Below are positions 1-16,226 of a DNA stretch of 16,226 bases, one piece after another. Source of the stretch: an uncultured Desulfobulbaceae bacterium (lineage in GTDB: Bacteria > Desulfobacterota > Desulfobulbia > Desulfobulbales > BM004); contig CAMYJP010000023.1 in the NCBI GenBank assembly GCA_947258675.1, positions 1 through 16,226 on the forward strand. The letters are read 5' to 3'. The position numbers and the translations under genes are program-made. Below the pieces are notes generated by a model, which had not been told where the DNA came from, made no database searches, and saw only the letters and a program-made list of their open reading frames with translations. Positions within the stretch are counted from its first letter, which is position 1; each line of letters starts with the position of its first letter.

Positions 1-54
1 ATCACCTTCAGCTAAAAGACTATTTTTGTAAATCGTCTAAAGGATGATTTTTGC

Positions 55-87
55 AAAAAAAAAGTACCAAGGGAAGGTATCCCGTGG
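55..87 (-). terminator. Rho-independent terminator, minus strand
   Basis: On the minus strand an 8-position stem (CCACGGGA against TCCCTTGG, one A/G mismatch, loop of five bases) is followed by TAC and then nine T. It lies about 150 bases beyond the stop codon of the corrinoid-protein gene, with no gene between, so it probably ends that transcript. The stem is short, and only one strand has a T tract. Confidence 0.55.
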
Positions 88-236
88 GTCGCTAGCATCA
101 CTGATGTTTCGTCAACTATAAAAAATCAGATCAGGATCTACAAGTAGTTCATACTTTTTTAGGGTTTGATACCAAGTAGATCAAGGTCAGAGTATATTAT
201 CAATGAGGGTTACTTATCTACTTTGGGGAAGTTCAT

Positions 237-881: not shown

Positions 882-990
882 TTAAGTTTCCTCTTTTTTT
901 AATGACGACCCAAATGGGCTCGCATGTAATAGTTCTGATTTTTATTACGCCACGCCTCTATGAAAATATGTTCATTTAAAGATAGATATC

Positions 991-1031
991 AGAAGCCCTA
1001 TAAAAAAAAGACAAGCATTAGGGCTTCTTGT
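991..1031 (-). repeat. Inverted repeat overlapping a terminator-like hairpin, leader of the corrinoid gene
   Basis: AGAAGCCCTA (991-1000) and TAGGGCTTCT (1019-1028) are perfect complements. Read on the minus strand, towards the corrinoid-protein gene, bases 1031-1011 can instead form a small hairpin (ACAAG with CTTGT, or an inner AAGC with GCTT) followed directly by C and eight T. The two folds share bases and exclude each other, as terminator and antiterminator do in attenuators. The terminator stem is weak, and no known riboswitch motif was recognised. The pairing is certain; the regulatory role is a guess. Confidence 0.35.
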
Positions 1032-1132
1032 TATGGCCAACTGTATTGATCGGCAAGATTTGAACATGCAGATATTAACGGTCTACTAGTTCATCTTAAT
1101 GTATTCCCCTTTTCATCCGATAATGTCTCATG

Positions 1133-1156
1133 AGCGACCACATTGTGGTGCTTTTC
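1133..1156 (+). terminator. Weak terminator-like hairpin
   Basis: AGC and ACCAC (1133-1141, one bulged G) pair with GTGGT and GCT (1145-1152) around a three-base loop, followed by four T. It lies upstream of the chemotaxis receptor gene and has no obvious plus-strand gene to terminate. It may instead be a regulatory palindrome. Confidence 0.25.
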
Positions 1157-1348
1157 AGTATAATTCCTTTTGCTTTAGAGAGACATATTAGAATTTATTG
1201 GATAGCAAAAATTTAGAGAGACTTCTATCACAACTAAAAATGATTTTGTCCCGCTGTGTTTGCTCTTTGGACATCTTTTTTGATGGAGTTTGGAAAACAC
1301 AGTTTTTTACATTGGCCTTTAGCTATTCAATTTTGGCAGAAACAAGTT

Positions 1349-3115
1349 ATGAGCAAACAGCATAGTAAATCTTGGCAAAAAATCCGATTGATAAGACAAT
1401 TGCCCATACATTGGATAATGTACCTGAATGGTGCATTGCTGATCCTAATTATAATAGCAGGTGTGTTGCTTATATCCGGTAATCTGCAGAAGGGACGACG
1501 TCACAATCAGTTGAATGGAAAAGAGATTCAGGAACTTGCCCTGCAGCTTGAAGATCATGTCATTCATAATTTTGAATTGCAGCGATTGATAGGTAAGCAA
1601 CAAGCGACAGCTTTGCTCGCAAAACATGAGATTATTAGGTTCGTACTTAATGATGAAAAAAGCTCGGTCCCTCTGGAATCAGTGCTATCGAAATTACAGA
1701 CTCAGCAGATTGAACTGCAGAAGTTATGGCCGGTTGATCTTCCCCAAAACTTATTTGAAGAATTGCGGGGCAACGGCATTATCATGGGTGATATTGCGTC
1801 AGAACTGTTTGGAAATTACTCTCCAGTGCAGCGGGCAGAAATGGCCGAGGATGCCAGGAGTGCGGCGAATGGTCTTGTCCAGGCTGTAGAGAACATTACT
1901 ATTGAATTGGAAAAATTTGCCAAGGGCATGAATGAATTAATGCTTCAGACCAAAGATAATGTGCTGATCAATTCCGAAGACTTGGGCGATCGCCTCGATC
2001 TGGTTGCCAAGCATTTTATGATAAGCATGATTATTATAATCTCCCTGATAGTTATCTTACAGTTCTTCTTATACGTGGTACTCAACCGAAGGCTGAAGAT
2101 GATAGTTGAACGAAGCAGAGATATAGCAATGGGCGAAGGCGATCTGACCGCTAGACTGGACGTTGAAACAAATGATAAAATCGGTGAAGTGGCCAACTGG
2201 TTCAATATTTTCATTGAAAAAATCCAGGTGATTGTTCTGGAGATTAATCACAAAACAGATTTATTATTCACTTCATCGGCTAAACTGAATCAGCTTTCAA
2301 ACACACTTGCAGCAAATACCCTTGAAGTTGCTGAGAGCTCAGAATCCATGACCAACTCTGTCAAGGATGTCAGTGCAAATATAGGGTCTGTCGCTGCCGC
2401 AACGGAGCAAAGTTCGACAAATGCCGATATGATAACAACCGCAACAGGCGAACTATCCAGCACAATCAATGAAATTGCAAGAAATACAGAGGTTGCAAGG
2501 AATATAACCTGTGAAGCTGTAGAAGAAACCCAGGCAGCTTCCGAGCATATGGATGGTTTTGCCAATGTTGCCGGAGAGATAACAGAAATTACCGAGACAA
2601 TTTCGGAGATTTCGGAACAGACAAATCTACTGGCATTAAATGCCACCATTGAAGCGGCAAGGGCCGGTGAGGCAGGGAAGGGGTTTGCCGTAGTTGCCAA
2701 TGAGATCAAGGATCTTGCAAAAAAGACCTCCGATGCCACAGGTGAGATCAAGAAAAAGATCAGTGCTATTCAGAATTCAACGGACACAGCAATAAATAAA
2801 ATCAGCATAATTACCAAAGTGATTACTGATGTGAATGATATCGTAACATCAATTGCCTCTGCTGTTGAGGAGCAATCTGTAACTACCAAGGATATAGCGA
2901 TCAACATCAGTCAGTCCTCGGAGAGCATTAAGGAAGTTAATACGAACATGTCCCAAGGCAAAGTTGCCACTGATGGGTTTGTGCAGGGAATTACAGAGAT
3001 AAAAAATAAGAATTTGGAAATTTCAGATAGCAGCTCCCAGTTGCAACAGGATGCTGATAGGTTAGCGGATTTATCCAAAAAAATTAAACAGTTGGTTAGT
3101 ACTTTCAGAGTTTAA
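1349..3115 (+). CDS. Methyl-accepting chemotaxis protein
   Basis: A membrane chemoreceptor of 588 residues from the chosen start. A short basic N-terminus leads into transmembrane helix 1 (residues 18-40, [20 protein letters not shown]). Next come a periplasmic helical sensor (about 41-220, no family recognised) and transmembrane helix 2 (about 221-244, [20 protein letters not shown]). A HAMP linker (245-300) includes GEGDLTARL. The long cytoplasmic coiled coil has the conserved signalling tip [18 protein letters not shown], then [10 protein letters not shown] (about 421-451), which contacts CheA and CheW. The C-terminus ends FRV with no CheR-binding pentapeptide. The frame is open back to a GTG at 1256, but neither start has a clear ribosome site. 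ATG 1349 gives the usual short cytoplasmic tail, so I prefer it. No chemotaxis genes are nearby, so the ligand is unknown. Confidence 0.93.
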
Positions 3116-3383
3116 AATATTTCTTAAAAGGTTTTCTCCCTTCTTTTATAGCCTTCATTTTAAAACATCGTAATATCTGTCAATCTTTATTACCTGTTGG
3201 CTTTTCTCATCTTATTCTGCATTATTCACGAGCATTTCACAGAGTACTTTATATATTTCATAAGCAATTCATGATTTGTGCACATCACAGGCCCGACAGA
3301 AAAACGACAGGCAAAAAATATCTCCTCTGTCAAGTCAGGCTTTTAATTAAGCTGAAATTGTTCGGAAAATTGGAGGAAATTAA

Positions 3384-4124
3384 ATGTTCAATTGGTTTAC
3401 CAGTCCGGAAGCATTGATTGCTCTTGGCACTTTAACAGCTCTCGAGATAGTTTTAGGGGTGGATAACATTATTTTCATTTCGATACTTGTTGGCCGTTTA
3501 CCGAAAAATCAACAAAACTTTGCCAGGTATTTCGGGCTCGGTCTTGCTATGCTATCACGCCTTGCTCTTCTTTTTTCAATTACCTGGGTTATTGGATTGA
3601 AAGAACCTTGGTTTTCTCTCGCAGGTCAAGAGATTTCCGGCCGAGACATTATTTTGATTGGTGGAGGAATTTTTCTTCTCGCAAAAGCAACCCATGAAAT
3701 TCATAATAGTTTAGAAGGAATAGCGGAACACAAACAATCATCTGCTGTAATGAGCCTTGGATCGGTTCTTTTCCAGATTGCGATTTTGGATATAGTATTT
3801 TCTTTGGATTCAGTAATAACAGCTGTTGGGTTGGTACAGAATGTTTCTATTATGGTAATTGCAATTGTGATTTCTGTGGTTGTCATGCTATTTGCTGCAA
3901 AACCGATAGGTGATTTTGTCGATGACCACCCCACAATTAAAATTCTGGCCCTTTCATTTCTCATTATGGTTGGTGTAACTTTGATAGTTGAGGGTTTTGA
4001 TGTACATGTTCCAAAAGGGTATATATATTTCTCAATGGCATTTTCAGTCTCTGTTGAAATGCTCAATTTACGTTTACGCAAGAAACAAGTTGAGCCCATA
4101 CAGTTGCACAAGAAACTAAGTTGA
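3384..4124 (+). CDS. TerC family integral membrane protein, YgdQ-like
   Basis: This 246-residue protein has about seven hydrophobic helices. It carries the TerC-family signatures EIVLGVDNIIFISIL (residues 21-35) and, in the second half, ILDIVFSLDSVITAVG, whose acidic residues in the membrane fit metal binding. Length and motifs, including the end VHVPKGYIYFSMAFSVSVEMLN, closely match E. coli YgdQ (about 237 residues). The TerC family is linked to tellurite resistance and, in several members, manganese efflux and metallation of exported proteins. The substrate here is unknown. ATG 3384 has a strong GGAGG ribosome site. The gene appears monocistronic. No manganese (yybP-ykoY) riboswitch was recognisable upstream, although such elements often precede TerC genes. 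Confidence 0.92.
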   Translation: MFNWFTSPEALIALGTLTALEIVLGVDNIIFISILVGRLPKNQQNFARYFGLGLAMLSRLALLFSITWVIGLKEPWFSLAGQEISGRDIILIGGGIFLLAKATHEIHNSLEGIAEHKQSSAVMSLGSVLFQIAILDIVFSLDSVITAVGLVQNVSIMVIAIVISVVVMLFAAKPIGDFVDDHPTIKILALSFLIMVGVTLIVEGFDVHVPKGYIYFSMAFSVSVEMLNLRLRKKQVEPIQLHKKLS

Positions 4125-4296
4125 GGTGTCTAGGTCAAAGGGTAATACCTGCAAGGAATTTGGATTCTAGGGGTAATACTTGGACTTGTAACGATTATAC
4201 TCGTTTGTGTCTCATATATGGCAAGGGACATACAAGAATAGTAACTCATTAAAGAAAAGACTGAGGACCCATGGTGAATAAATGGGGAAAGGCGAA

Positions 4297-4677
4297 TTAT
4301 GTAGCTATGTCTGTATGATGCAGAATTAAATATTCCAGCCTAGATTTTTGAAAGGAGTTAAGGTGCAATAATTTGACGCCACATTTTCTCATTAATAGCA
4401 TGCTGAAAGGGGACCGGCAATCAAGACTTGTGAAGATTTTTTTAAACGGTATTTTTTTTAAAATAGGCGAATTATTGTGACAAAAAATATCAAACTCGGT
4501 TGCTTCTTCCGGAGTATTAGGATTGAACAAACAGCTGCAGTAAAGCCCTCCCATACTTATGTTTTTAATTCTTCCTATATTTTCTGAGTGAATGACAAAA
4601 ATAGTATCCTTTGCTTCATAACGCTTATCTTGTCGCCGTTCATCTGGTTTATTTATATTTGTCTTCATGCTATCCAT
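4297..4677 (-). CDS. Small PilZ-domain protein
   Basis: A small soluble protein, 126 residues from the chosen start. The N-terminal part has the two PilZ signatures for cyclic di-GMP binding: RxxxR (R15-R19 in RRQDKR) and, 20 residues on, NxSxxG (N39 in KNISMGGLY). The rest would complete the six-stranded barrel but is divergent and rich in Cys, Lys and Phe. The frame is open from a TTG at 4719, but ATG 4677 (GGAT nearby) or ATG 4668 (GGA nine bases upstream) are better starts and keep both motifs. It diverges from the gene at 4885, with 165-207 bases between depending on the start. Probable role: cyclic di-GMP effector; the target is unknown. Confidence 0.72.
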   Translation of the reverse strand: MDSMKTNINKPDERRQDKRYEAKDTIFVIHSENIGRIKNISMGGLYCSCLFNPNTPEEATEFDIFCHNNSPILKKIPFKKIFTSLDCRSPFSMLLMRKCGVKLLHLNSFQKSRLEYLILHHTDIAT

Positions 4678-4884
4678 TCCAGATCCGTAAAAAGTTTTTT
4701 GATACGTAAAATTATGCAAAAAGCATGCCTAAAAAAACAATTTTTATGTTTACTGTAATCTCAACCTGTTAGGATTGTTGTAGGAAATAAATGTTCTTTA
4801 CTGCATGGATTAATTAGAATAATTTAAAATAAACCTTTCATTTTTTCAAAATGGTCATTTTAAGCTGTCATAGAGAGAGAAAAA

Positions 4885-5280
4885 ATGTCTTTGAATTATA
4901 ATATATTTACAACTGAAAAAGTGGTAATTGTTATCGGCAAGGGTACTGTTACCGAGGATGACTTTATTGATCAGGTTACAAAGCAAATCAACGATTCTGA
5001 CTATAGATTTGAAATGAACACAATATATGATCTAAGAAATTGTCGATATGAAGGCGGTCACGAGAAATTGAAAGATTTAGCAAGGAAAATGGTAGTCAGC
5101 GATATAATAAAACAACCATCCAAAACAGCAATAATAGCGGATAGAGATTTAGAATATGGTTTGGCAAGGGTATATAGCGCCTTAGCTGAAGATTCAAAGG
5201 TGGATTACGAAGTGTTTCGTAGCTGTAAAGATGCCATGTGCTGGCTGGAGTTGCCAGAAGATTACCTGGAAACAAAATAA
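4885..5280 (+). CDS. SpoIIAA/STAS-like small cytoplasmic protein
   Basis: A 131-residue soluble protein with no signal peptide or membrane segment. Its alternating strands and helices resemble the SpoIIAA/STAS-like fold: an early strand pair (KVVIVIGKGTVT), an amphipathic helix, the strand NTIYDLRNC, a helix with DLARKMV, the strand KTAIIADRD, then LEYGLARVYSALAED and a final strand and helix (YEVFRSCKDAMCWL). Proteins of this type are common in Deltaproteobacteria and usually unannotated. I see no clear phosphorylatable serine like that of anti-sigma antagonists. The start follows a weak GAGAG-like ribosome site. A weak hairpin lies at 5304-5319. The family call is by pattern only; the function is unknown. 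Confidence 0.6.
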   Translation: MSLNYNIFTTEKVVIVIGKGTVTEDDFIDQVTKQINDSDYRFEMNTIYDLRNCRYEGGHEKLKDLARKMVVSDIIKQPSKTAIIADRDLEYGLARVYSALAEDSKVDYEVFRSCKDAMCWLELPEDYLETK

Positions 5281-5303
5281 TAGGATATTTTTCTAATACC
5301 TGG

Positions 5304-5319
5304 AAGGCCTCCGCCTTTT
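5304..5319 (+). terminator. Possible weak terminator
   Basis: AAGGC and GCCTT pair around the loop CTCC and are followed by TT and an AT-rich stretch, 24 bases after the stop of the SpoIIAA/STAS-like gene. The stem is five pairs and the T tract is short, so this is tentative. Confidence 0.3.
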
Positions 5320-5550
5320 AAATGAAGACGAAATAAAGAGTCAGGCCGGCGGCATGAAAAGCAGGCAGTACCTGAACCTTACAGATTAAAACATTGATAC
5401 TGATTATTCCATTCAGTTCTTGTCATTATCTCATTTAAATGATTGTAATACTGTCGATAAATATTTGTAAAAGTTGTAAGCAGAAGGAAAAATGAAACAG
5501 AAAACCAAATAGGCTGGGACATTCCATCTCCAGGTATATCGATTTAGCTT

Positions 5551-7851
5551 ATGGGCGATAAACCAACATATGAAGAGCTCGAGCATCTTGTTAATGAGCT
5601 GCAAAAAAAAGAAAAACAATATCGCTCTGTAATTGAAGACCAAAACGAATTTATTGTCCGTTGGCTGCCGAATGGAGTTCGTACATTCGTAAATAGTAGT
5701 TATTGCAAATATTACGGTAAATGTAGAGAAGAGTTGATTGGTTCCAGTTTTTTCCCTCTGATTGATCCGGCAGATCTTAAAAAAGTCCAAGAAAGAATAA
5801 ACAGACTAACACCGGAGAATCCGATTTTATCGGACGTTCATCGCGTTGTTCTGCCAGATGGGGGCGTAGGTTGGAATCACTGGACTGACCGGGCCATATT
5901 TGATGCGGATGGTCAAGTGGTTGAATACCAATCCGTTGGCAGAGATATTACCGAACACAAACAGGCAGAAGAGGCGTTGCATGAAAATAAAGTTATTTTA
6001 GATTCATTTCTTGAAAACAGTCCGGTCTATATTTTTTTTAAGGACCATGAAATTCGTTCTTTAATGCTGAGCAAAAATTATGAGCAGTTGCTTAATATGC
6101 CCCTTGAAAACATATTAGGCAAAACAATGGATGAGCTTTTCCCTTCTGACATTGCAAAGCGCATGGTCGAAGAAGACAAGCAAGTGCTAAGCGAGAGGAA
6201 AAATGTAACTGTGATGGAGGAATTTGGTGGAAGAATTTACGAAACTACCAAATTTCCAATCAGCATAGATGGAAAACCTAATATGCTTGCTGGATTTACC
6301 TTGGACATTACCGAACGCAAGCAGGCTGAAGATTCATTACGTAAAGAGCGTGATTTCAGCACAGCCCTGATCCAGACTTCCCCGGCCTTCATCGTCCTCA
6401 TTGGTATGGATGGTAAGGTAATGATGATGAATAATTCCATGCTTGCTGCTCTCGGATATAAGAGAGAGGAAGTAGTGGGGCGCGACTACCTGCAGACTTT
6501 CGTGCCAACGGAGGAACAGCCAGAACTTGGGAAAACTTTTAAGGTAATTCTTGGTGGACTAATTTCGGCTTCGACAACGAATCATATCGTAACTCATGAC
6601 GGGCAGAAATTATTCACTGAATGGCGCGGAGTTCCTCTGTTTGACGCTTCCAATGAGATTCAATGTTTTTTTGGGATAGGGATCGACATCACTGAACAGA
6701 AGCTACTTGAAGAACAGCTAAGGCAAGCTCAAAAAATGGAGGCAATTGGTACTCTAGCTGGGGGGATTGCCCATGATTTTAACAATATTCTTTCCGTTAT
6801 CTTGGGATATAGCGAACTTATCCTTGAAGGGCTTTCAGATGATAGCCCGATCTTTGAAGATATAAAACTTATTTTAGATTCTGGGAAAAAAGCCTCTGCC
6901 CTTACAAATCAACTTTTGGCATTCAGCCGTAAGCAAGTTCTTGAAATGCGAAAAATTGATCTGAACTCTGTTGTTGAGAACATGGCAAAAATGTTTGGAA
7001 GGATAATCGGAGAAGATATAGAGCTGGAGCTTAAAACCGACACTCCAACTAAAAAGGTTCTCGCTGATCTTGCTCAGATAGAACAGGTATTAATGAACCT
7101 GGTGGTTAATGCGCGTGATGCCATGCCTAAAGGCGGCTGTCTTATAATTGAAACGAAAGATGTCCAATTTGAAACAGAAATTATTAGTCATCATGAAGAA
7201 ATAAAACCTGGTCGCTATACTGTTGTTGCTATATCAGATTCTGGTGGTGGAATGACTACTGAGATTCAAAAGAAAATATTTGAACCTTTTTTTACCACGA
7301 AAGAAAAGAGCAAAGGGACTGGTCTCGGGCTGGCTACGGTATACGGAATAGTAAAACAGCACAATGGTTATATCTATGTTTATAGCGAGCAGGGGGAAGG
7401 TACGACGTTTAAGATTTATTTGCCAATTGCGGAAGGAAAACCGGATCAGCTTGGGTCACAGATTCCTAATTCCAAACCGAAAGGCAATGAGACAGTGCTC
7501 ATAGTAGAGGATGACGAGACCATACGCCAACTGATATTCAAAATACTAAAGCCATTGGGGTATACTGTTTTGGGGGCTTCCAATGGACAGGAAGCATTAG
7601 ACATCAGTGCTACCTATGAAGGAAATATTGACTTGTTGTTAACCGATGTAATTATGCCGGGGATGAACGGCCGGGTGTTAGCCGACAAATTGAAGGGGGG
7701 GCGACCCGCAACAAAAGTTGTTTTCATGTCAGGTCACACAGATAACGTCATTGCCCAACATGGTATTCTAGAATCAGGCGTAACCTTGATACAGAAACCA
7801 CTATCCTCCCAACTACTAGCCAGCAAATTAAGGACTGTTTTAGATCAATAA
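5551..7851 (+). CDS. Hybrid sensor histidine kinase (three PAS, HisKA, HATPase, receiver)
   Basis: A 766-residue cytoplasmic sensor kinase with no membrane segment. A short coiled leader (MGDKPTYEELEHLVNEL) is followed by three PAS domains (about 20-140, 145-255, 270-385). The first two end in the PAC-type DITEHKQAEE and DITERKQAED, the third in DITEQKLLEEQL. The HisKA box is GGIAHDFNNIL, with phosphorylatable H408. The ATPase domain has the N box (NLVVNARDAMP), DSGGGM, FEPFFTTK and GTGLGLATVYG. The C-terminal receiver (about 648-766) has acidic E653/D654/D655, phosphoacceptor D699 in LLTDVIMPG and the conserved lysine in QKP. A stop codon lies just upstream in frame, so ATG 5551 is the first start, though its ribosome site is poor. 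No output domain or partner regulator is adjacent. It converges on the sigma-54 regulator gene; co-function is not shown. Confidence 0.94.
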   Translation: MGDKPTYEELEHLVNELQKKEKQYRSVIEDQNEFIVRWLPNGVRTFVNSSYCKYYGKCREELIGSSFFPLIDPADLKKVQERINRLTPENPILSDVHRVVLPDGGVGWNHWTDRAIFDADGQVVEYQSVGRDITEHKQAEEALHENKVILDSFLENSPVYIFFKDHEIRSLMLSKNYEQLLNMPLENILGKTMDELFPSDIAKRMVEEDKQVLSERKNVTVMEEFGGRIYETTKFPISIDGKPNMLAGFTLDITERKQAEDSLRKERDFSTALIQTSPAFIVLIGMDGKVMMMNNSMLAALGYKREEVVGRDYLQTFVPTEEQPELGKTFKVILGGLISASTTNHIVTHDGQKLFTEWRGVPLFDASNEIQCFFGIGIDITEQKLLEEQLRQAQKMEAIGTLAGGIAHDFNNILSVILGYSELILEGLSDDSPIFEDIKLILDSGKKASALTNQLLAFSRKQVLEMRKIDLNSVVENMAKMFGRIIGEDIELELKTDTPTKKVLADLAQIEQVLMNLVVNARDAMPKGGCLIIETKDVQFETEIISHHEEIKPGRYTVVAISDSGGGMTTEIQKKIFEPFFTTKEKSKGTGLGLATVYGIVKQHNGYIYVYSEQGEGTTFKIYLPIAEGKPDQLGSQIPNSKPKGNETVLIVEDDETIRQLIFKILKPLGYTVLGASNGQEALDISATYEGNIDLLLTDVIMPGMNGRVLADKLKGGRPATKVVFMSGHTDNVIAQHGILESGVTLIQKPLSSQLLASKLRTVLDQ

Positions 7852-8070
7852 TGAATCTTGTATAGCTATAGCTCTCTAAGTCCTAAAGTAATCAGTTGCT
7901 TTGATCAGGGAGAGACTTCAAATATGAAGGGTAAAATTATATCTTTTTCGTACTGCTGAGATAGCAATATTAAACTGATGGATGTCAGAGTAAAATATTA
8001 TTTATATTGGATATGAAACTGGGGGGCTACGCATATACTTTGGCATGATGGCCCTAATATACTATTTGAT

Positions 8071-10116
8071 TCAAGATTTTCTTCCAAAAGAAATACCCAT
8101 TTTCCGCATACGATGCCTTAAGGTGCCCGGATTAATACCCAGAAGTTCAGCAGCCCCCTTATTACCTTCTACTCTACCGTTTGTAATGCTTAACACTCTG
8201 CGTATATGGTCAGCGTTTACCTGATCAAGATTGTATGACTCTTTGAATTCTGAGACAAAGGCTGAAGTCACTTCTGATTCTTCTTTTGGGCCAAGTTCGG
8301 AAAAGGAAAGCGGACCTTCTCTATGAAGGATTATGCTACGCTCCACCGCATTTTCGAGTTCCCGCACATTGCCTGGCCAATGATGGGCCAAAAGTTGATC
8401 ATAAGCCTCTGAGACAAGAGAGGGTATCGCAGCCAATTTTAAATCACGGGATTTTTTCTGAATAAAATGATGGACCAGACTTGGTATGTCTCCACTTCTT
8501 TTCCTGAGAGGTGGGATCTCAATAGGGAAGACCTGAAGCCTGAAGTAAAGGTCTTCTCTAAATTCTCCATCCCGGATCATGGCATCCAAATCACGGTGGG
8601 TTGCCGCAATAACCCTGATGTCAACCTTTATCGGACCTGTACCGCCAACTCGTTCAATTTCCTTATCCTGCAGGACTCTCAATAATCTCACCTGGGCTTC
8701 CGGTGGAAGTTCGCCAATCTCATCAAGGAATATTGTGCCACCATTGGCCCTTTCAAATCGACCCCGTTTCTGATCAATGGCTCCGGTAAATGCACCTTTC
8801 TCGTGTCCGAAAAGTTCACTGTCCATTAGCGTTTCAGGGATAGCGCCACAATTTACTTTTATAAAAGGTCCATTCCGTCTCGAAGAAGCATTGTGGATTG
8901 CTCCGGCAATAATCTCCTTACCAACACCTGTTTCTCCCAGCAACAGGACCGGGCTGGAAAGGGTTGCGACGCGCCGAATCTTTTCCATCACGTCCTTTAA
9001 GCCAAAGTCGGCACCGATAATCTCATTACCGGTTATTTTTTGAAGTTCTTCGTGAAGGTATCGGTTGTCATCGGCCAGGAGATCCTTGAGTTCGAGAAGT
9101 TCACTGTAACGACGGCTGTTGGACAGGGCGATGAAGAAGGGTTGCTTCAACTGTTTCATAAGCCGGAGGTGTTCATCATTGAATTTATCCCAGCCATTAG
9201 CCCAAAGAGTGACAGATCCGATCCATTGATTTTCCACTATCAATCGAACGTTAATTATCGAGGATTTTTCTTTTCCCATGGCAGCGAGAATCGGTTTTGC
9301 AATGGGATGTTCTTCTGCCCGGTTATCAACAAAATCATCAAGTTGGCTTACATCTTCCAACATGGCCCTTATTTCCGGGGGATAGGCAGCTTGGAAATTA
9401 ACGAGGTGCCCGCCGATCTTATCAGCGTGAATATTTAGGGTGACTGTTCCGTTTTTGGAGTCATAGAAGTTAAGGGCTGCCTCCTCTGCCGGTATATAAT
9501 CCTGCAGGAATAGCAGGCTTTGCCACAGGGCCTTCTCGATATTGAGACTGCCGCAGATCCGCATAGTTGCTTCCCAGAAAAAATCCCTATCATACAGCCT
9601 GAGTTCACTGCGGTGTTTGAGAGTGTTGGACAATGCAATTGTGAATGGATCTTTCAGCAATGATATCAAGCGGGCATGATCTGCTGTGAGTTTTTCTGTT
9701 CCTGCAGTAATACAAACAAGGTGTCCAACTATCTGTTCCTCAGACTGAAGCGGCAGCACCATCAGAGAAGTACATGGCACCTTGTGAAAGTTCAGCATAT
9801 CCCTGCTTATTGGATGTTTGTCGGGAGTATCAAAAATATACACCCCATGTAATTTCGTAAACTCTTCATGGTCGCAATTTCTTGCTTCCTCAGAGAGGGG
9901 TGTCAAAAAGTCCAGGGCAATGCACTCTGAGGCTGTGGCGGTGGCTATGGTTCGCATTGCACCGTGGTTTTCGTCAAAACATTGTAAATATACTCTGTCC
10001 AGTGGAATCGATTGTTGAAGAAACTGGAAGCAGGAACCCAAAGCTTTTTCAATTTCAAGACTGCCGCAAATGCGTAAAGTGGCCTCACGAAAAAAGTCAT
10101 TGTCATTAATAGTCAT
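8071..10116 (-). CDS. Sigma-54-dependent transcriptional activator with tandem GAF domains
   Basis: A 681-residue enhancer-binding protein of FhlA/NorR-like design. Two GAF-type sensor modules (about 1-165 and 175-340) precede the AAA+ domain (about 365-600) and a Fis-type helix-turn-helix (about 640-681). The AAA+ part is complete: Walker A GETGVGKE (about 389-396), the sigma-54 contact loop GAFTGA, Walker B FLDEIGEL, and HHWPGNVRELENAVER. The HTH reads GAAELLGINPGTLRHRMRKM. With no receiver domain it should respond to a ligand through the GAF modules, not by phosphorylation. A near-ideal GGAGGAG ribosome site supports ATG 10116. It is divergent from the RND/MerB-like operon, and the 248 bases between the two start codons hold a 38-bp palindrome and a -24/-12 promoter. 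Activation of that operon is therefore the obvious inferred role. Confidence 0.95.
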   Translation of the reverse strand: MTINDNDFFREATLRICGSLEIEKALGSCFQFLQQSIPLDRVYLQCFDENHGAMRTIATATASECIALDFLTPLSEEARNCDHEEFTKLHGVYIFDTPDKHPISRDMLNFHKVPCTSLMVLPLQSEEQIVGHLVCITAGTEKLTADHARLISLLKDPFTIALSNTLKHRSELRLYDRDFFWEATMRICGSLNIEKALWQSLLFLQDYIPAEEAALNFYDSKNGTVTLNIHADKIGGHLVNFQAAYPPEIRAMLEDVSQLDDFVDNRAEEHPIAKPILAAMGKEKSSIINVRLIVENQWIGSVTLWANGWDKFNDEHLRLMKQLKQPFFIALSNSRRYSELLELKDLLADDNRYLHEELQKITGNEIIGADFGLKDVMEKIRRVATLSSPVLLLGETGVGKEIIAGAIHNASSRRNGPFIKVNCGAIPETLMDSELFGHEKGAFTGAIDQKRGRFERANGGTIFLDEIGELPPEAQVRLLRVLQDKEIERVGGTGPIKVDIRVIAATHRDLDAMIRDGEFREDLYFRLQVFPIEIPPLRKRSGDIPSLVHHFIQKKSRDLKLAAIPSLVSEAYDQLLAHHWPGNVRELENAVERSIILHREGPLSFSELGPKEESEVTSAFVSEFKESYNLDQVNADHIRRVLSITNGRVEGNKGAAELLGINPGTLRHRMRKMGISFGRKS

Positions 10117-10169
10117 TTCAGAACTCCTCCATACAAGATATCTATCATATATGTCAGCGTAACATGTAT

Positions 10170-10207
10170 CTGTGAAATATGACAGTATGTTCCGTCGTAT
10201 TTCACAG
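10170..10207. promoter_or_regulatory. Palindromic upstream activating site, probable target of the adjacent regulator
   Basis: CTGTGAAATATGAC (10170-10183) and GTCGTATTTCACAG (10194-10207) are inverted copies of 14 bases with one mismatch, separated by 10 bases. The centre lies about 106 bases upstream of the -24 GG of the sigma-54 promoter, a typical distance for enhancer-binding activators, and in the divergent gap next to the activator gene. The palindrome is seen directly; its use as the binding site is inferred. Confidence 0.72.
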
Positions 10208-10292
10208 AATTTGAATCGGCAAATATTCCATACTTAGTAGTATTATTATGTAACTATTTAAAATTATATGTAAATAATTTTTTACGAGCTTT

Positions 10293-10309
10293 TTGGCATG
10301 CAAGTTGCC
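10293..10309 (+). promoter_or_regulatory. Sigma-54 (-24/-12) promoter of the RND/MerB-like operon
   Basis: TTGGCATGCAAGTTGCC matches the TTGGCAC-N5-TTGC consensus with the required ten bases between GG (10295-10296) and GC (10307-10308). Transcription would start near 10320, about 45 bases before the first start codon. Together with the divergent sigma-54 activator gene and the palindrome at 10170-10207 this is a coherent control region. Confidence 0.82.
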
Positions 10310-10364
10310 ATACAAGGGTCAAAAAACTGTGGAAAGCAGATATTACCCTGAATGGAGACATATT

Positions 10365-10652
10365 ATGAGATGGATGGAATTTATCAAAGTACAGACGGCA
10401 GGATCAAGTGTTGCCGCAAAACTTCAGAACTTTATTACTGAGTGTGAGAAATGCAAAGGCCTGCTCGAAGCTAGAATGTTTAACCATGTATTGGTTGATG
10501 ATTGTTCACTGTATCTGCTCTGGAATACGGACCGGCCCGAACCGCAGGGTAGCAACATTGGTCTGCATCTCTGCAATATCTTGAAAAAATACGGATTGGT
10601 TGACCATACGGTGTGGGTGGAAAAGGAAGGAATAGAGGAGAAAGCATCATGA
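10365..10652 (+). CDS. Small protein of unknown function, first gene of the operon
   Basis: A 95-residue soluble protein that I do not recognise. It begins MRWMEFIKVQTAG and has a strand, helix (VAAKLQNFITECEKC), strand pair (VDDCSLYLLWNTD), helix (IGLHLCNILKKYG) and final strand (HTVWVEK). This order would suit a ferredoxin-like (antibiotic-biosynthesis-monooxygenase-like) fold. Cysteines occur in ECEKC, DDC and HLC and might bind thiol-reactive metal, but that is speculation. ATG 10365 has GGAG seven bases upstream. The frame is open back to a TTG at 10293, but that start overlaps the sigma-54 promoter and would precede the transcript. Its stop overlaps the next start (ATGA), so it is translationally coupled to the adaptor gene. 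Confidence 0.72.
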   Translation: MRWMEFIKVQTAGSSVAAKLQNFITECEKCKGLLEARMFNHVLVDDCSLYLLWNTDRPEPQGSNIGLHLCNILKKYGLVDHTVWVEKEGIEEKAS

Positions 10653-11800
10653 AGGGAAACAAGAAATCACAAACAGAGCTAAAAAAACGAATTACAAGAA
10701 AATTGCTGAATTTATTGCCGGTAGTTTTCATTATTGCCCTTATCGTCACAATCGTTGGATTGTCAGGAACGATCAAGGCTGAAAAGGAGCGAATGACGGC
10801 AGAAAAAAAAGAGGCAATTTCCACAGAGCGTCCTGCAGCCAATGTTGTCCTGCTCGATGTGGAACCCTCCACTATTCATGACCAGATCAACCTTCCGGGC
10901 ATTATAGAGCCGTGGACAAAATTGAGTGTGCTTGCCAGGATTCACTCCACCGTTATCGAAGTGAAAGTACGCGAGGGAGACAAAGTATCAAAGGGACAAG
11001 TGATCGCCCGCCTTGATCCAGCTGATTTCCAAATTGCTTTAGACAGTGCAAGAGCCACCTACGAGCTGGCCGCTGCCGATCAGAAACGTCTAGAAACCCT
11101 ATATAAAAAAGGAATTATCCCCCGGGCTGAGATGGAAAAACTGGAAGCCCAGGTAAAAACCGGTAAGGCTGCATTGGAGAATGCTGAGCTTATGCTTTCT
11201 CGCTGTGAGATTATCGCGCCGCTTTCTGGGGTTATTCGTCGCTTGGATGCAAAGGTTGGTCTTTTACTGAGTGTTTCCGATCAGGTTGCAGAAATTCTGC
11301 AGATTGACAAGGTGAAAGCTGTTGTCGGTATACCGGAGTCGGATGTGGCGCTGGTAAGGAATATTAAGGATGTAGCACTGACTATCCAGGCCCTGGATAA
11401 TAAAGAAATAGTCGGCCGCTCTCATTTTCTGGCAAGTTCCCCGGATAACGGTGCCAGGCTCTACAGGTTGGAATTGGCCATTGATAATAAAGATAATTTG
11501 ATTCTGCCGGGCATGTTTTTCAGAGCGCAACTCATTAAAGAAGTCTTCAAAGACGCAGTTGTTGTGCCTCTTTATACGGTCATCAAACGGGAGGAACGCC
11601 AATTCGTATATGTTGAGGAAAATGGTGTGGCCCGACGAATACCAGTGGAACTGGGCATAATTGAAGACTGGCGGGTGCAAGTTACCAAAGGGCTCACCGC
11701 TGGCAGCCGCGTGGTAGTTGAAGGTCATAGGGATATTGACCAGGGTCACAAATTGAAAATCGTCCGGGTGATAAGCGATCCCATGGAGGCATTGCTATGA
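10649..11800 (+). CDS. RND efflux periplasmic adaptor (membrane fusion protein)
   Basis: A 383-residue HlyD/AcrA-family adaptor linking an inner-membrane RND pump to an outer-membrane channel. A basic N-terminus leads into one hydrophobic helix (about 19-42) that anchors it or acts as a signal; there is no lipobox. The first half of the lipoyl domain (about 91-127, VIEVKVREGDKVSKGQVIARL) precedes an alpha-helical hairpin (about 128-185), and the second half follows (about 188-218, IIAPLSGVIRRLDAKVG). Beta-barrel and membrane-proximal domains complete it, including LILPGMFFRAQL and the end RVVVEGHRDIDQG. ATG 10649 has GAGGAG eight bases upstream and overlaps the previous stop. The gene ends in an ATGA overlap with the pump gene. 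No outer-membrane channel gene is in the window. The substrate cannot be read from the sequence. Confidence 0.93.
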   Translation: MKGNKKSQTELKKRITRKLLNLLPVVFIIALIVTIVGLSGTIKAEKERMTAEKKEAISTERPAANVVLLDVEPSTIHDQINLPGIIEPWTKLSVLARIHSTVIEVKVREGDKVSKGQVIARLDPADFQIALDSARATYELAAADQKRLETLYKKGIIPRAEMEKLEAQVKTGKAALENAELMLSRCEIIAPLSGVIRRLDAKVGLLLSVSDQVAEILQIDKVKAVVGIPESDVALVRNIKDVALTIQALDNKEIVGRSHFLASSPDNGARLYRLELAIDNKDNLILPGMFFRAQLIKEVFKDAVVVPLYTVIKREERQFVYVEENGVARRIPVELGIIEDWRVQVTKGLTAGSRVVVEGHRDIDQGHKLKIVRVISDPMEALL

Positions 11801-13830
11801 TAATCTCAGATACTGCTGTTAAAAATTCTGTCACCGTGATGGTACTTTCTGTGATCATCATCGTCTTCGGTGTCTATAGCTATCTGGTATTGCCCAGGGA
11901 AAATGAGCCGGATATAACTATCCCTTATGTATTTGTATCCACAAGCTATAAAGGTGTTTCTCCAACTGATATCGAGACCGCGGTTACTATAGAGATTGAG
12001 AAAAAACTAAAAGGCCTTGACGGTGTGAAAAAGATCCAGTCAGTCAGTTCCGAAGGGCTTTCTTCAATAAATATTGAGTTTGTCACTGGAACGGATATTG
12101 ATAAGGCCCTCCAGGATGTAAAAGACAAAGTGGATGAGGCTAAGGGTGAGCTGCCTGCTGATCTGGAAAATGATCCGGCTGTCTTTGAGGTGAATCTGTC
12201 TGAAATGCCAATTGCGGTATACTCACTGTCCGGTACCTGTGGTCTGCCTTGTTTAAAGGATATCGCTGATGATTTAAAGGATGATATCGAGGCAATTTCA
12301 GGTGTTCTTGAGGTAGAGGTTACCGGCGGGCTTGAGCGTGAGATCCGCGTAGAAGTCATCCCTGATAAGCTGGCCTATTATGGATTGTCTATTGCCACCT
12401 TTCAAGAAAAATTATTCAGCGAAAACCAAAACACCTCAGGTGGTGCAATCCGGATGGGTGACGGCAGGTTCCAGCTGCAGGTACCCGGTGAGTTTAAGAG
12501 CCCGGCTGAAATCTACGGTCTGGTAATGGGTACCCATAATGGCCAGCCGATTTATCTCAAGGACCTGGCAACGGTAATCGACGGCTTTAAGGAAGAAGCA
12601 AGCCGTTCAAGGCTCGACGGCCGATCCGCGGTCAGTATTGCGGTAAAAAAACGTTCAGGGGAGAACATTGTTTCGATCAGCAAACAAGTTGATGAGTTGA
12701 TCGAGAAGGCAAATCCAGCCTGGCCCGATAACACCGAGATAGTCAAGGTAATGGATAAGGCCAGTGATATAGAAGGGATGGTGGCTGACCTGGAAAACAA
12801 TATCCTCACCGGTCTGCTTCTGGTAGTTGTTGTCATCTTTTTTGCCATGGGTCTTCGCAACGCTATTCTAGTCAGTATGGCGATACCATTTTCCATGCTG
12901 CTTTCATTTACGGTTCTCAGTATCATGGGCATCACTCTCAACGTGGTGGTCCTCTTCGGCCTTACCCTGGCTCTGGGCATGCTGGTGGATAATGCAATTG
13001 TAATTATAGAAAATATCTACCGCTACATGGAACAGGGCGCTCCTCGACTTGAGGCGGCCATGCGGGCCACTTCAGAGGTGGCATACCCAATAATCGGCTC
13101 CACCCTGACCACCCTGGCTGCTTTTTCACCCATGCTGTTCTGGCCGGGGTTGATGGGTGAATTCATGGGGTACCTGCCGCTGACCCTGATCGTTACGCTG
13201 ACATCAAGTCTCTTTGTGGCCATGGTGATCAATCCAGCCTTGGCCTCGATGTTCATGAAAAGCAAAGTCTCCGGGCAACGGAATGAATTAACCATTGATG
13301 AAATTGCCACTGCCGGTGAAAATCCTGTAGCGATCAGGGGGCGGATGTTGGAAGGATATGCCCGTGTTCTTCGGTTTGCAGTCAAAAGGCCGGTTACAAT
13401 ATTCATGATTGCCTTTGCTTTTCTGATTCTGTTGTTTCAGGGTTGGATGCTGGCTGTAGGGTTGGAAAAACCGATTGAGTTCTTCCCTGATATCCAGCCC
13501 AAGTCGATGTACGTGAATGTGGAACCGCCGGAAGGAGCAGACCTGGAATATACTGACCGGCTGGTAAAAAGGGTAGAGGTGGCGATTGCCGGAACTTTGA
13601 GGGACGGACAGGAAGGTCTTGGAAATATTTCGGAAGATATGTATGAAGAGGCCTTCTTACCCAAAGTACATTGGAAAGCCGAGGGCAGCAGTTTCAATGG
13701 GCCCAGTGACCTCGGCAATATCAAGAATATATTTACCAAGGCGGTGACCATCGCCGGCGGCACTTCCATGTTCGGCAGCAACACTCCGAATAATATCGGT
13801 ATCCGATTTCTTGATCTTGATCATGTTTGA
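11797..13830 (+). CDS. RND efflux pump, N-terminal part (frame broken by duplication)
   Basis: The first 677 codons of a HAE-type RND inner-membrane pump. It has transmembrane helix 1 (about 12-32), the first periplasmic porter loop (33-333), helices 2-6 (about 334-485) and helix 7 (about 531-553), then part of the second periplasmic loop. The proton-relay region in helix 4 reads GLTLALGMLVDNAIVIIEN (D398, N399), a single-aspartate form, where many AcrB-like pumps have two. The frame matches the family up to IGIRFLDLD, then reads HV and stops at TGA 13828-13830. The stop arises from a 55-bp tandem duplication that shifts the frame. The remainder of the protein is encoded from 13877 in another frame. 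Removing one repeat copy restores a single protein of about 1105 residues, normal for RND pumps. Confidence 0.92.
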   Translation: MIISDTAVKNSVTVMVLSVIIIVFGVYSYLVLPRENEPDITIPYVFVSTSYKGVSPTDIETAVTIEIEKKLKGLDGVKKIQSVSSEGLSSINIEFVTGTDIDKALQDVKDKVDEAKGELPADLENDPAVFEVNLSEMPIAVYSLSGTCGLPCLKDIADDLKDDIEAISGVLEVEVTGGLEREIRVEVIPDKLAYYGLSIATFQEKLFSENQNTSGGAIRMGDGRFQLQVPGEFKSPAEIYGLVMGTHNGQPIYLKDLATVIDGFKEEASRSRLDGRSAVSIAVKKRSGENIVSISKQVDELIEKANPAWPDNTEIVKVMDKASDIEGMVADLENNILTGLLLVVVVIFFAMGLRNAILVSMAIPFSMLLSFTVLSIMGITLNVVVLFGLTLALGMLVDNAIVIIENIYRYMEQGAPRLEAAMRATSEVAYPIIGSTLTTLAAFSPMLFWPGLMGEFMGYLPLTLIVTLTSSLFVAMVINPALASMFMKSKVSGQRNELTIDEIATAGENPVAIRGRMLEGYARVLRFAVKRPVTIFMIAFAFLILLFQGWMLAVGLEKPIEFFPDIQPKSMYVNVEPPEGADLEYTDRLVKRVEVAIAGTLRDGQEGLGNISEDMYEEAFLPKVHWKAEGSSFNGPSDLGNIKNIFTKAVTIAGGTSMFGSNTPNNIGIRFLDLDHV

Positions 13831-13876
13831 AAGCAACACGCCAAATAATATCGGTATCCGATTTCTTGATCTTGAT
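13767..13876 (+). repeat. 55-bp imperfect tandem duplication that frameshifts the RND pump gene
   Basis: Copy 1 is 13767-13821 and copy 2 is 13822-13876, directly abutting. The copies differ at five of 55 positions: three within bases 7-10 of the unit, plus two single changes further on. Since 55 is not a multiple of three, the duplication adds one base to the frame and produces a stop at 13828. Joining 13821 to 13877 reads IRFLDLD then DQTRSANET without interruption. Confidence 0.93.
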
Positions 13877-15169
13877 GACCAGACACGTTCTGCCAACGAA
13901 ACCATTGAGGATATTCGACAACGGGTTGCCGATATCCCGGGCGCCAAGATAACCATTGCTGCGGCAGAAGAAGGGCCAGCAACCGGCTCGCCGATCAATA
14001 TCGAAATCGCCGGCGATGAACTGGTAATGCTTGGCAGATTGTCCAAACAGATCAGGGAAATTATAGCAAAAATACCGCATGTTGTGGATGTGCGCGATGA
14101 TTACAGTGAAGGAACCCCCTCCATCCAGGTCGTTATCGACCGGCAGAAGGCAGCCCTGTTCGGTCTTACTACCGACATGATCGGTTTTGCCCTGAAAACC
14201 GCCTATAACGGCCTGGATGTTTCCACCTTTCGCGAGAGTAACAAGGATTACGATATTACCGTGCAGTTGCCAGAGGAAGATCGGCGTTTGACCGATGTTC
14301 TGCATGAATTAATGATCCCTGTACCATCCGGCGAAATGGTACCCCTTTCCACCCTGGCGGATATAGAATACACTGGCGCCAACGGTGATATTGTCAGGGT
14401 CGATAATAAGCGGGTAGTGACAGTCAAAGCAAATGTTGATGAGACAAGGATACCCGGCCCTGTGGCCCGAGCCCAGGCTGAGGAATTGCTAAAGGAATTT
14501 CCTATGCCTCCTGGTTATGATGTAAAATTTACCGGTGAATTGGAGATGCAGAAGGAATCAGAGGATTTTTTGTCCAAGGCCTTTGTCATTGCATTGTTTC
14601 TGATTTTTTTCGTTTTGGTAAGCCAGTTTAATTCCATCACGTTGCCAATTATCATCATGACGACGGTAATCCTTTCCTTGGGCGGCGCTTTCTTAGGGTT
14701 GGCAGTATTCAGACAGCCTTTTGGCATCATTATGACTAGTGTCGGTGTTATTTCACTTGCAGGTGTGGTGGTGAATAATGCCATTGTGCTGATCGATTAT
14801 ATCAACAAGCTACGGGAACGGGGCATGGAAGTCCGCCAAGCTGTGATTGCCGCCGGCGCCACCCGGCTGCGTCCGGTCATATTAACTGCTATCACCACGA
14901 TCCTGGGCCTCCTGCCCATGGTGACCGGCATATCGTTTGATTTCCATCATTTTGCTATCTCCTGGGTAAGCGAATCAAGCCAATGGTGGCAATCAATGGC
15001 GGTTGTGGTGATCTTTGGCCTCATGGTGGCCACTTTTCTGACCCTGGTGGTTGTACCGACCCTGTATTCATTCTTTGAAGACCTTTCGGCAACCAGGAAA
15101 AGAGTAATCGACCGTCTGCGTCAATTCGTTGTTGGCGTGAGTGGAGGTCTTGCAAATGAAGGTAAGTAA
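13823..15169 (+). CDS. RND efflux pump, C-terminal part
   Basis: The remainder of the RND pump: the end of the second periplasmic porter loop (including TGSPINIEIAGDEL and VVDVRDDYSEG) and helices 8-12. The helices carry FVIALFLIFFVLVSQF, GVISLAGVVVNNAIVLIDY and a C-terminal MVATFLTLVVVPTLYSFF. ATG 13823, inside copy 2 of the repeat, is the first ATG of this frame but has no ribosome site, so it is doubtful that this half is translated on its own. If the duplication is real, the pump is probably inactive unless rare frameshifting or reassembly of the two halves occurs. If it is an assembly artefact, this is simply the second half of an intact pump. The MerB-like gene follows after 18 bases. 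Confidence 0.88.
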   Translation: MFESNTPNNIGIRFLDLDDQTRSANETIEDIRQRVADIPGAKITIAAAEEGPATGSPINIEIAGDELVMLGRLSKQIREIIAKIPHVVDVRDDYSEGTPSIQVVIDRQKAALFGLTTDMIGFALKTAYNGLDVSTFRESNKDYDITVQLPEEDRRLTDVLHELMIPVPSGEMVPLSTLADIEYTGANGDIVRVDNKRVVTVKANVDETRIPGPVARAQAEELLKEFPMPPGYDVKFTGELEMQKESEDFLSKAFVIALFLIFFVLVSQFNSITLPIIIMTTVILSLGGAFLGLAVFRQPFGIIMTSVGVISLAGVVVNNAIVLIDYINKLRERGMEVRQAVIAAGATRLRPVILTAITTILGLLPMVTGISFDFHHFAISWVSESSQWWQSMAVVVIFGLMVATFLTLVVVPTLYSFFEDLSATRKRVIDRLRQFVVGVSGGLANEGK

Positions 15170-15187
15170 TCAATACGGGAGGAATAA

Positions 15188-15952
15188 ATGCAATCTAATT
15201 TGAAACACAAAATGTTCATGGGAATTGGGAGTTTTATGGTCCCGATACCTCAAGCGATATCTGGAAAAGGGCTGAAAAGAGGCGTATTAGGCGCCAAAGC
15301 AAAGGCAGATATTTTATCGACAGAAGAACGTAGGGTTCATCATTTCATTGTCAAGAAAATAGCGGTTGCCAAAAAACCGATAACAGCTGAGTCTGTTTCT
15401 GAAGAGCTTGATGTACAGGCGAAAAGGGTTGAGAAAATTATTGACAAACTTGAGGCAATGAAAACGTTTCTTTATCGAAGCGATGGAAAAGGAGTAAATT
15501 GGGCCTACCCCCTTTCGCTTGAAAATACAGATCACAGAATGACCGTTAGCACTGGTGAACAGTTTTTCGCAGCCTGAGCAGTAGACGCTTTTGCGACTCC
15601 CTTCGTGTATGGGAGATTACGAAACCAGAAATTGAATTTTTCAGTCAATTCAAGATGTGCTAACACCGGCAGACAAATACAAATCGAACTCGATAGTGAC
15701 TTGAATATTACCAGCGTTACTGAAGGCTCCCACCCCATATACTGCCTGGCCTTAATGAATACTGACCGGATGAAAGAACCAAGTATTGTCGATATCTTTT
15801 GACGAAAGTCACTTTTCTTCTGGTCAGAAGAGGATGCAAGAAAATTTCAAAAGAGAACGCGTCAACTGAAATTCTATATGAACGTTACTCCAGTGTCTCT
15901 CGGAAGTATCAAAAAAATCCAGTCAGCGATTTTTGGTTTTGATATAGAATAA
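15188..15952 (+). CDS. MerB-like organometal lyase, probable double-selenocysteine protein (TGA at 15575 and 15800 recoded)
   Basis: Conventional reading gives a 129-residue winged-helix protein stopping at TGA 15575-15577. The same frame continues through TGA 15800-15802 to TAA 15950-15952, making 254 residues of MerB type. An N-terminal extension (1-45) is followed by a winged helix (about 45-95), then NWAYPLSLENTDHRMTV, then the catalytic core FFAA-U130-AVDAF. MerB of plasmid R831b has AWCALDTL there, so U130 equals catalytic C96 and D133 equals D99. SRCANTG (C157) matches SHCAATG (C117). DIF-U205-RKSLFFWSEEDA matches SFCCHVHFFAS, so U205 equals catalytic C159. Each TGA precedes a SECIS-like hairpin. 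MerB enzymes cleave carbon-mercury bonds; selenols would bind Hg strongly. GGGAGGA supports ATG 15188, 18 bases after the pump gene. I recall a proposed selenium-assisted organometal system with a MerB-like member, SaoL; membership is unverified. A decayed pseudogene is the alternative. Confidence 0.8.
15591..15623 (+). promoter_or_regulatory. SECIS-like hairpin for the first TGA
   Basis: CTCCC (15597-15601) pairs with GGGAG (15611-15615) around TTCGTGTAT. A short lower stem (CG at 15594-15595 with CG at 15620-15621, flanked by TT and AA) extends it. The apical-loop G lies 28 bases after TGA 15575-15577, within the 16-37 base range usual for bacterial SECIS elements. The stem is modest, so on its own it would be weak evidence. 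Confidence 0.5.
15813..15834 (+). promoter_or_regulatory. SECIS-like hairpin for the second TGA, GGUC loop
   Basis: TCTTCT (15816-15821) and AGAAGA (15826-15831) form a perfect six-pair stem around GGTC. Two wobble pairs and one A-T pair extend it to nine. The GGTC occupies bases 20-23 after TGA 15800-15802. In the E. coli fdhF SECIS the loop GGUC sits at bases 19-22 after its UGA, a strikingly close match. The loop identity and spacing are seen directly; function is inferred. Confidence 0.66.
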
Positions 15953-16038
15953 ATAAGGATGCCGGTGCAGATAGTATTCTAGAAAAGCCCTTTTCAACTG
16001 AACAATTGTTGAACATTATCAAAGTTCCACTTCAATAA
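15943..16038 (+). pseudogene. Remnant of a response-regulator receiver domain (C-terminal end)
   Basis: The frame from 15943 to the TAA at 16036-16038 encodes DAGADSILEKPFSTEQLL followed by NIIKVPLQ. This is the typical last strand-helix of a CheY-like receiver, with the conserved KPF lysine. There is no start codon and no upstream part: the preceding codon in frame is a stop (15940-15942), and the stretch begins within the end of the MerB-like frame. It is therefore a broken relic, probably of a two-component protein replaced or deleted when the operon was rearranged. Confidence 0.5.
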
Positions 16039-16086
16039 TAAAGCGGCAGGAAGATTCACTAGTGACTATCTCTCTGAAAGATTTGA

Positions 16087-16226
16087 TCAACTGCTAACCA
16101 TGGCACAGGTTGTTTTTCTTTTGACGATCAATTGATATTCCTTTTCAGAAATTGAAGTGTTTCTGTTTTTTAGCATGAATACAATACAATCCTGGCAGAT
16201 GTTAAATGCACTTCTATAATCATCAA
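16087..16226 (-). CDS. Possible partial gene at the right edge, unknown
   Basis: On the minus strand a frame is open from the window edge for 45 codons to a TGA at 16087-16089. Its product includes FNICQDCIVFML (a CxxC pair), then ISEKEYQLIVKRKTT and the end CAMVSS. I do not recognise a family. The length alone is not significant in AT-rich DNA, but the residue mix looks protein-like. If real, it converges on the MerB-like operon and most of it lies outside the window. Confidence 0.3.
   Translation of the reverse strand, partial: DDYRSAFNICQDCIVFMLKNRNTSISEKEYQLIVKRKTTCAMVSS

Follow-up and report, generated by a model that had tools for sequence, protein, structure and literature searches.

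The window analysed here is the whole stretch of 16,226 nucleotides from an uncultured Desulfobulbaceae bacterium (GCA_947258675.1, contig CAMYJP010000023.1, positions 1-16,226, forward strand). Towards its end lies a gene whose product resembles the organomercurial lyase MerB and whose reading frame carries two UGA codons, one at each of two catalytic cysteine positions of MerB. The features of this gene are given below, with counts that refer to 67 related loci found in genome contigs; SECIS stands for selenocysteine insertion sequence.

15177..15183, plus strand: GGGAGGA, resembling a ribosome-binding site, 5' of the ATG and seen in the sequence
15188..15952, plus strand: double-UGA MerB-like gene, ATG at 15188 and TAA at 15950-15952, 254 residues with both TGA read
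15575..15577, plus strand: UGA1, residue 130, MerB Cys96 position, predicted selenocysteine; TGA in 67 of 67 loci, aligned with the MerB Cys
15584..15586, plus strand: Asp133, MerB Asp99 position; Asp in 67 of 67 loci
15597..15615, plus strand: SECIS-like hairpin 3' of UGA1, from pairing and pinned synonymous codons
15656..15658, plus strand: Cys157, MerB Cys117 position; Cys in 66 of 67 loci, Arg in L060
15800..15802, plus strand: UGA2, residue 205, MerB Cys159 position, predicted selenocysteine; TGA in 67 of 67 loci, aligned with the MerB Cys and the UGA of SaoL
15813..15834, plus strand: SECIS-like hairpin 3' of UGA2, with loop GGUC 19 nt past the UGA, from pairing and pinned synonymous codons

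We consider it highly probable that this gene represents a conserved PF03243 group in which both catalytic cysteine positions are UGA, very likely both read as selenocysteine (Sec), and which is predicted to cleave the carbon-mercury bond with two selenolates. The frame from the ATG is interrupted only by TGA 15575-15577 (preceded by Ala) and TGA 15800-15802 (preceded by Phe). An initial annotation of this DNA had described a frame open through both TGA to the TAA at 15950, and we reproduced its coordinates and its 254-residue product.

That annotation had also likened the joined product to MerB. Indeed, the read-through protein scores 59.9 bits against PF03243 (MerB; gathering threshold 27). 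The 129 residues ahead of UGA1, taken alone, do not match PF03243 at an E-value of 0.1 or below, and this N-terminal half is weakly similar to winged-helix domains in Pfam. A phmmer search against PDB sequences aligns residue 130 with the Cys in AWCALD of MerB, in an alignment that stops short of residue 205. An alignment of 10 sequences, including MerB L078 and SaoL L099 as references that each score above their NCBI cut-off, places residues 130, 157 and 205 in three invariant columns. Both methods agree with the earlier placement of UGA1 on C96, and the 10-sequence alignment supports that of UGA2 on C159; D99 and C117 are retained, as had been claimed. The AlphaFold2 model of the read-through product has a pLDDT of 93.7, and its predicted fold matches MerB over 205 residues.

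The same two codons recur in relatives. A single-protein scan of genome contigs returned zero relatives; the profile scan that followed returned the 67 loci, and the second of its patterns had Trp at site 1, a choice that would bias it to TGG if anything. By DNA, both sites are TGA in all 67 loci. The two codons are 75 codons apart in 66 loci and 74 apart in L037, with no further in-frame stop between them, and homology continues on both sides of the in-frame UGA in every locus. All 67 loci encode Trp105 by TGG, and the terminal stop is also TGA in 29 of 68 genes (the window and the 67 loci). Residues 131-254 are conserved across phyla, including Asp133, Cys157 and a C-terminal motif; this comparison was made without L038 and without L049, L061 and L067, which have truncated or broken starts. 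L038 (its gene is 88.8% like that of L021) was also left out of the synonymous-site, hairpin, SECIS and neighbour analyses and is counted in the codon tallies (TGA/TGA). Whole-genome searches gave any hit in 15 of 297 genomes of the phylum of L060 (Acidobacteriota), 23 of 395 Desulfobacterota (the phylum of L002) and 5 of 299 genomes of the class of L060. All 24 rows of at least 200 bits in these searches were TGA/TGA, 14 of them new loci. Two TGA at the same places are far beyond chance, in line with the initial view that two random nonsense mutations would be unlikely to strike exactly these codons.

Protein searches covered 5.8 billion database proteins, and the best 120 of 494 matches in one of them were read; the 140 database homologues counted here are the 142 read minus the window's own two copies. 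Of these, 79 stop precisely at residue 129; Trp occupies both 130 and 205 in 46, another 2 have Trp at site 1 and nothing at 205, and 11 have Cys at 130. Ten of these 11 terminate directly before site 2, and the other is an incomplete entry. The search for Cys or Sec homologues suggested by the initial annotation yielded both Cys at 130 and, by DNA, TGA/TGA. The Cys-at-130 relatives nest inside the double-UGA tree, where P0070 (Cys) is sister to L060 (UGA) with support 100/91, the bootstrap not being fully settled. L060 (L060:3215-3985) is itself the sole locus of 67 with Arg for Cys at the Cys117 position, and its genome has selB fragments only. The window gene falls in a nine-row clade (support 100/100) with one database protein and seven loci labelled Desulfobacterales, their families or Deltaproteobacteria. 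Cys at both sites (TGC/TGC) is seen in MerB L078, and no close Cys/Cys relative of the double-UGA group was found. A search of one acidobacterial class for the DNA of a close Cys/UGA relative gave only double-TGA or distant relatives, so that the evidence for Cys at site 1 among close relatives comes from database proteins.

The RNA downstream of each UGA appears to be under constraint. We compared 67 rows (the window and 66 loci), leaving L004, which is 97% like L003, out of the pairing analysis. Synonymous sites are more frozen after each UGA than before. After UGA1, Pro is CCC in 65/67 (+8), Phe TTC in 67/67 (+9), Val GTG in 67/67 (+10) and Gly GGG in 67/67 (+12), with z of 8-17. Codons +5 to +9 after UGA2 include Phe TTC in 64/64 twice, Ser TCA in 62/67 (z 20) and Glu GAA in 64/67. 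On the upstream side, two serine codons are likewise conspicuous (z 7.5 at -9 from UGA1 and 8.9 at -6 from UGA2). The UGA1 hairpin loop is CGUGU in the window and CGUGC in most relatives, and the window stem has a U-U mismatch. Cells are paired in 92.1% of cases in the UGA1 hairpin, against 33-54% when it is slid along the alignment, and in 89.7% in the UGA2 hairpin, against 45-59%. Double-change cells number 14 in the UGA1 hairpin, against at most 7 in the slides. In four rows Trp212 is replaced by Arg (CGG) together with a change of Ser TCA to TCG, so the pair is kept and the amino acid is lost.

We also applied the SECIS rules given in the Fig. 2 legend of PMC13188914, in a strict form that asks for at least 6 unbroken pairs. 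A hairpin follows each of the two UGA in 51/67 rows, compared with 1390/12682 other gene codons (11%) and 3/27 terminal TGA stops. With one mismatch allowed, the counts are 59/67 for UGA1 and 51/67 for UGA2, compared with 3440/12682 other codons. Twelve of the 16 UGA2 misses were inspected, and 11 have the GGUC loop and fail the energy limit.

Machinery for selenocysteine is common in the 66 carrier genomes of relatives (G001-G066, mostly draft bins). A selB gene exceeds its cut-off in 56/66 carriers and 2/14 controls, selD in 59/66 and 2/14, and tRNA-Sec in 49/66 carriers; 61/66 have selB or tRNA-Sec over the cut-off. Most over-cut-off selD matches in the carriers have one in-frame TGA, as expected of a selenoprotein SelD.

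Selenolates bind mercury more strongly than thiolates and are deprotonated at neutral pH. In the mechanism we propose, each UGA would be decoded by SelB with Sec-tRNA at the hairpin that follows it. By analogy with MerB chemistry, the organomercurial would then be bound by Sec130 and Sec205, in place of the MerB cysteines; Asp133 would transfer a proton to carbon, and the hydrocarbon would leave. Mercury(II) on the two selenolates would then be passed to cellular thiols, sulfide or selenide. In MerB, according to the abstract of PMC4525700, Cys96, Cys159 and Asp99 participate in Hg-C bond cleavage and retain mercury(II) up to its removal by thiols, and a passage of PMC11639659 reports that selone model compounds react faster than thiones. 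The group is widespread among bacteria and, on this analogy, would likely break down organic mercury.

Immediately upstream of the lyase gene are efflux genes.

10613..15169, plus strand: RND efflux adaptor and frameshifted permease, directly upstream, with an 18-base gap to the lyase (15170-15187)

The RND genes and the lyase possibly share one transcript. A 55-nt tandem duplication (91% alike; window 13767-13876) splits the RND permease into two frames, a lesion that may be real or an assembly fault, the two not being told apart. At the other end of the window, positions 237-881 (minus strand) encode a methyltransferase-type corrinoid protein, for which the nearest models are MtgC-like, with scores far below their cut-offs.

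Across the 67 rows, the commonest upstream genes encode MerR-family (7 rows) and MarR-family (6 rows) regulators. The former lie on the same strand in L010, L018, L019, L021, L028, L047 and L056, and the latter in L011, L013, L020, L035, L045 and L048, the distance in L048 being 902 bases; the family was read by Pfam on two members each (L018 and L047; L011 and L035). The MerR-type neighbours of the 7 loci have no conserved set of several cysteines and so lend no support to mercury sensing. By contrast with the 14 controls, none of which has hgcA over the cut-off, 35/66 carrier genomes do. Among the 395 Desulfobacterota, hgcA is present in 9/15 double-UGA carriers versus 105/380 others (Fisher p 0.016), and in 15/23 genomes with any MerB-like hit versus 99/372 (p 0.0002), both without correction for kinship; 6 of the 15 carriers are already among the 66.

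How are the two UGA codons read? A decaying pseudogene with two nonsense mutations might be suspected from the adjoining permease, itself frameshifted by the 55-nt duplication. That reading has a negligible probability, refuted as it is by the same two TGA in 67/67 loci with no other stop between them. Reading of UGA as tryptophan at both sites, through code reassignment or near-cognate readthrough, would account for the 46/140 homologues with Trp at both. Yet the codons are TGA and never TGG in 67/67 loci, in which Trp105 is always TGG, and we infer that the best explanation of the database Trp is gene callers applying translation table 4. For the same reason we dropped Trp in full-length relatives as a refutation of Sec. 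Within the window, moreover, 5 of the 11 other open reading frames (ORFs) end in TGA (among them a fragment of the frameshifted permease and a small hypothetical) and 0 of 11 have an in-frame TGA; relatives with Cys at site 1 also speak against tryptophan, which we regard as extremely unlikely. The product might instead be a winged-helix protein of 129 residues, terminated at UGA1, with the remainder rarely or never made, as suggested by the 79/140 homologues that end there and by the weak winged-helix similarity of that half. Neither the cross-phylum conservation of residues 131-254 (Asp133, Cys157 and the C-terminal motif among them) nor the frozen synonymous sites after both UGA would be expected of such a protein, and we judge it highly unlikely.

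The remaining alternative accepts a double selenoprotein with the MerB fold and gives it another role, either on a different organometal (tin, lead, arsenic or selenium) or in binding or storing mercury without turnover. A selenolate pair would grip mercury(II) tightly, no mercury gene was recognised beside the gene among the window proteins scanned, and the MerR-family neighbours lack a conserved multi-cysteine set. However, the MerB acid, Asp133, is kept in 67/67 loci, the predicted fold matches MerB over 205 residues, and hgcA, whose product serves to form methylmercury, is enriched among carriers. We think this alternative unlikely, and prefer a two-selenolate organomercurial lyase.

Several observations nevertheless weigh against that preference. 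The neighbours are variable, with no conserved operon partner among the 67 rows, and no mer gene was recognised beside the lyase among the window proteins scanned. For UGA2, double-change cells number 10, within the 3-12 of the slides, so this hairpin is set apart by paired share only; in L004 no hairpin at this site satisfies the strict form. The U-U mismatch keeps the window and its close clade from passing the strict UGA1 test (the window passes with one mismatch allowed), and an Rfam scan of the window gave no match. The window's host is not among the carrier genomes, 5/66 of which have neither selB nor tRNA-Sec over the cut-off. The tRNA-Sec cut-off is also passed by 5/14 controls, and a second count was therefore made at 60 bits or more (48 carriers). 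With selB present in 193/297 genomes of the phylum of L060, the base rate is high; the carrier machinery thus permits Sec reading without proving it and is weak evidence. Two database homologues depart from the pattern, P0007 with Arg at site 1 (ending just before site 2) and P0064 with Gly/Leu at the two sites, possibly through sequencing error or Sec loss. Finally, release of mercury from two selenolates may be slow, which makes product release the weak point of the mechanism, although the sulfide, thiols or selenide of an anaerobe may aid it.

Both the selenocysteine and the mercury activity are predictions from sequence. As a prediction, the probable double selenoprotein of the initial annotation is supported: the tests that could have overturned it were run, the window host's genome excepted, and residues at the two sites in the 140 homologues are not random, P0007 and P0064 being the exceptions.

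We found no double-UGA MerB-like enzyme among the matches listed in the literature searched; Haft and Gwadz 2023 or Haft and Tolstoy 2025 may describe one. Passages of PMC13188914, PMC9312934 and PMC2398784, and term look-ups in PMC12013277 and PMC5029168, contain no double-UGA MerB. A MerB-like selenoprotein with one Sec (SaoL) is already known. Environmental methylmercury reflects a balance between its making by hgcAB and its breaking by merB. More tentatively, a di-selenol organomercurial lyase may be widespread in anaerobes, many of them methylmercury makers, and overlooked by merB surveys, because its gene is truncated at the first UGA and the surveys seek Cys96 and Cys159. If active, the enzyme would provide an unseen demethylation route in anoxic settings, and methylmercury producers could destroy their own product, perhaps ending as mercury selenide. 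Selenium would have replaced sulfur in an entire metal-binding pair, and a single superfamily would still contain the Cys/Cys, Cys/Sec and Sec/Sec stages. The coexisting Cys/Cys, Cys/UGA and UGA/UGA forms would offer a natural test of the role of selenium in carbon-mercury cleavage.

How does the group compare with known systems? In MerB (PF03243/NF009710) both ligand sites are Cys, whereas in the window group both are UGA. The window protein also has about 25 additional N-terminal residues, and no mer gene was recognised beside it among the window proteins scanned. In a passage of PMC8261052, MerB homologues were examined for Cys96, Asp99, Cys159 and Cys117, with variants at 117 and Ser99 variants set apart as MerB-like; set against that signature, the window protein keeps Asp99 and Cys117 and has UGA for Cys96 and Cys159. 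The same source states that none of the genomes with MerB and without MerA encodes HgcAB homologues; hgcA is over the cut-off in 35/66 double-UGA carriers, where merA was not searched. The window product scores 68.4 bits against NF009710 (cut-off 193, not reached) and has the best E-value among 64 group members.

A second, distant MerB-like group (L104:1474-2178 and L105:1486-2181) likewise has TGA at both ligand sites, with a SECIS-like hairpin after UGA2. It differs in having Glu for Asp133, shares 14-16% identity with the window protein and forms a separate pair in the tree (100/99); both genomes (G607 and G639) have hgcA over the cut-off. In another MerB-like group, L103:1420-1908 (minus strand) has TGA at the Cys159 position versus TGC in L100 and L101, a direct Cys/UGA pair at site 2.

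SaoL (NF040728) is listed in a table of the review PMC13188914 as a MerB-like organometallic lyase with motif CU and one Sec; a table row of PMC9312934 names the same accession. It shares with the window protein a MerB-like sequence and a UGA in place of Cys159, and the TGA of L099 falls in the same column as UGA2. Unlike the window group, L099 retains the Cys equivalent to Cys96, and a Cys precedes its UGA; the window gene has two UGA, preceded by Ala and Phe, in place of a single Cys-Sec motif. The initial annotation had pointed to SaoL, a MerB-like member of a proposed selenium-assisted organometal (Sao) system. Membership of SaoL is ruled out, since 0/64 group members reach the NF040728 cut-off of 140 (the best is the window, at 1e-19 and 71 bits). 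No Sao model stands among the matches listed for the other window proteins scanned (25 each for two long lists), in a window that ends 274 bases past the gene. A putative mercuric reductase with UxxU, entered in a table row of PMC9312934, is a reductase by name and PRK label and not a lyase; like the predicted product of the window gene, it is a mercury-linked prokaryotic double selenoprotein.
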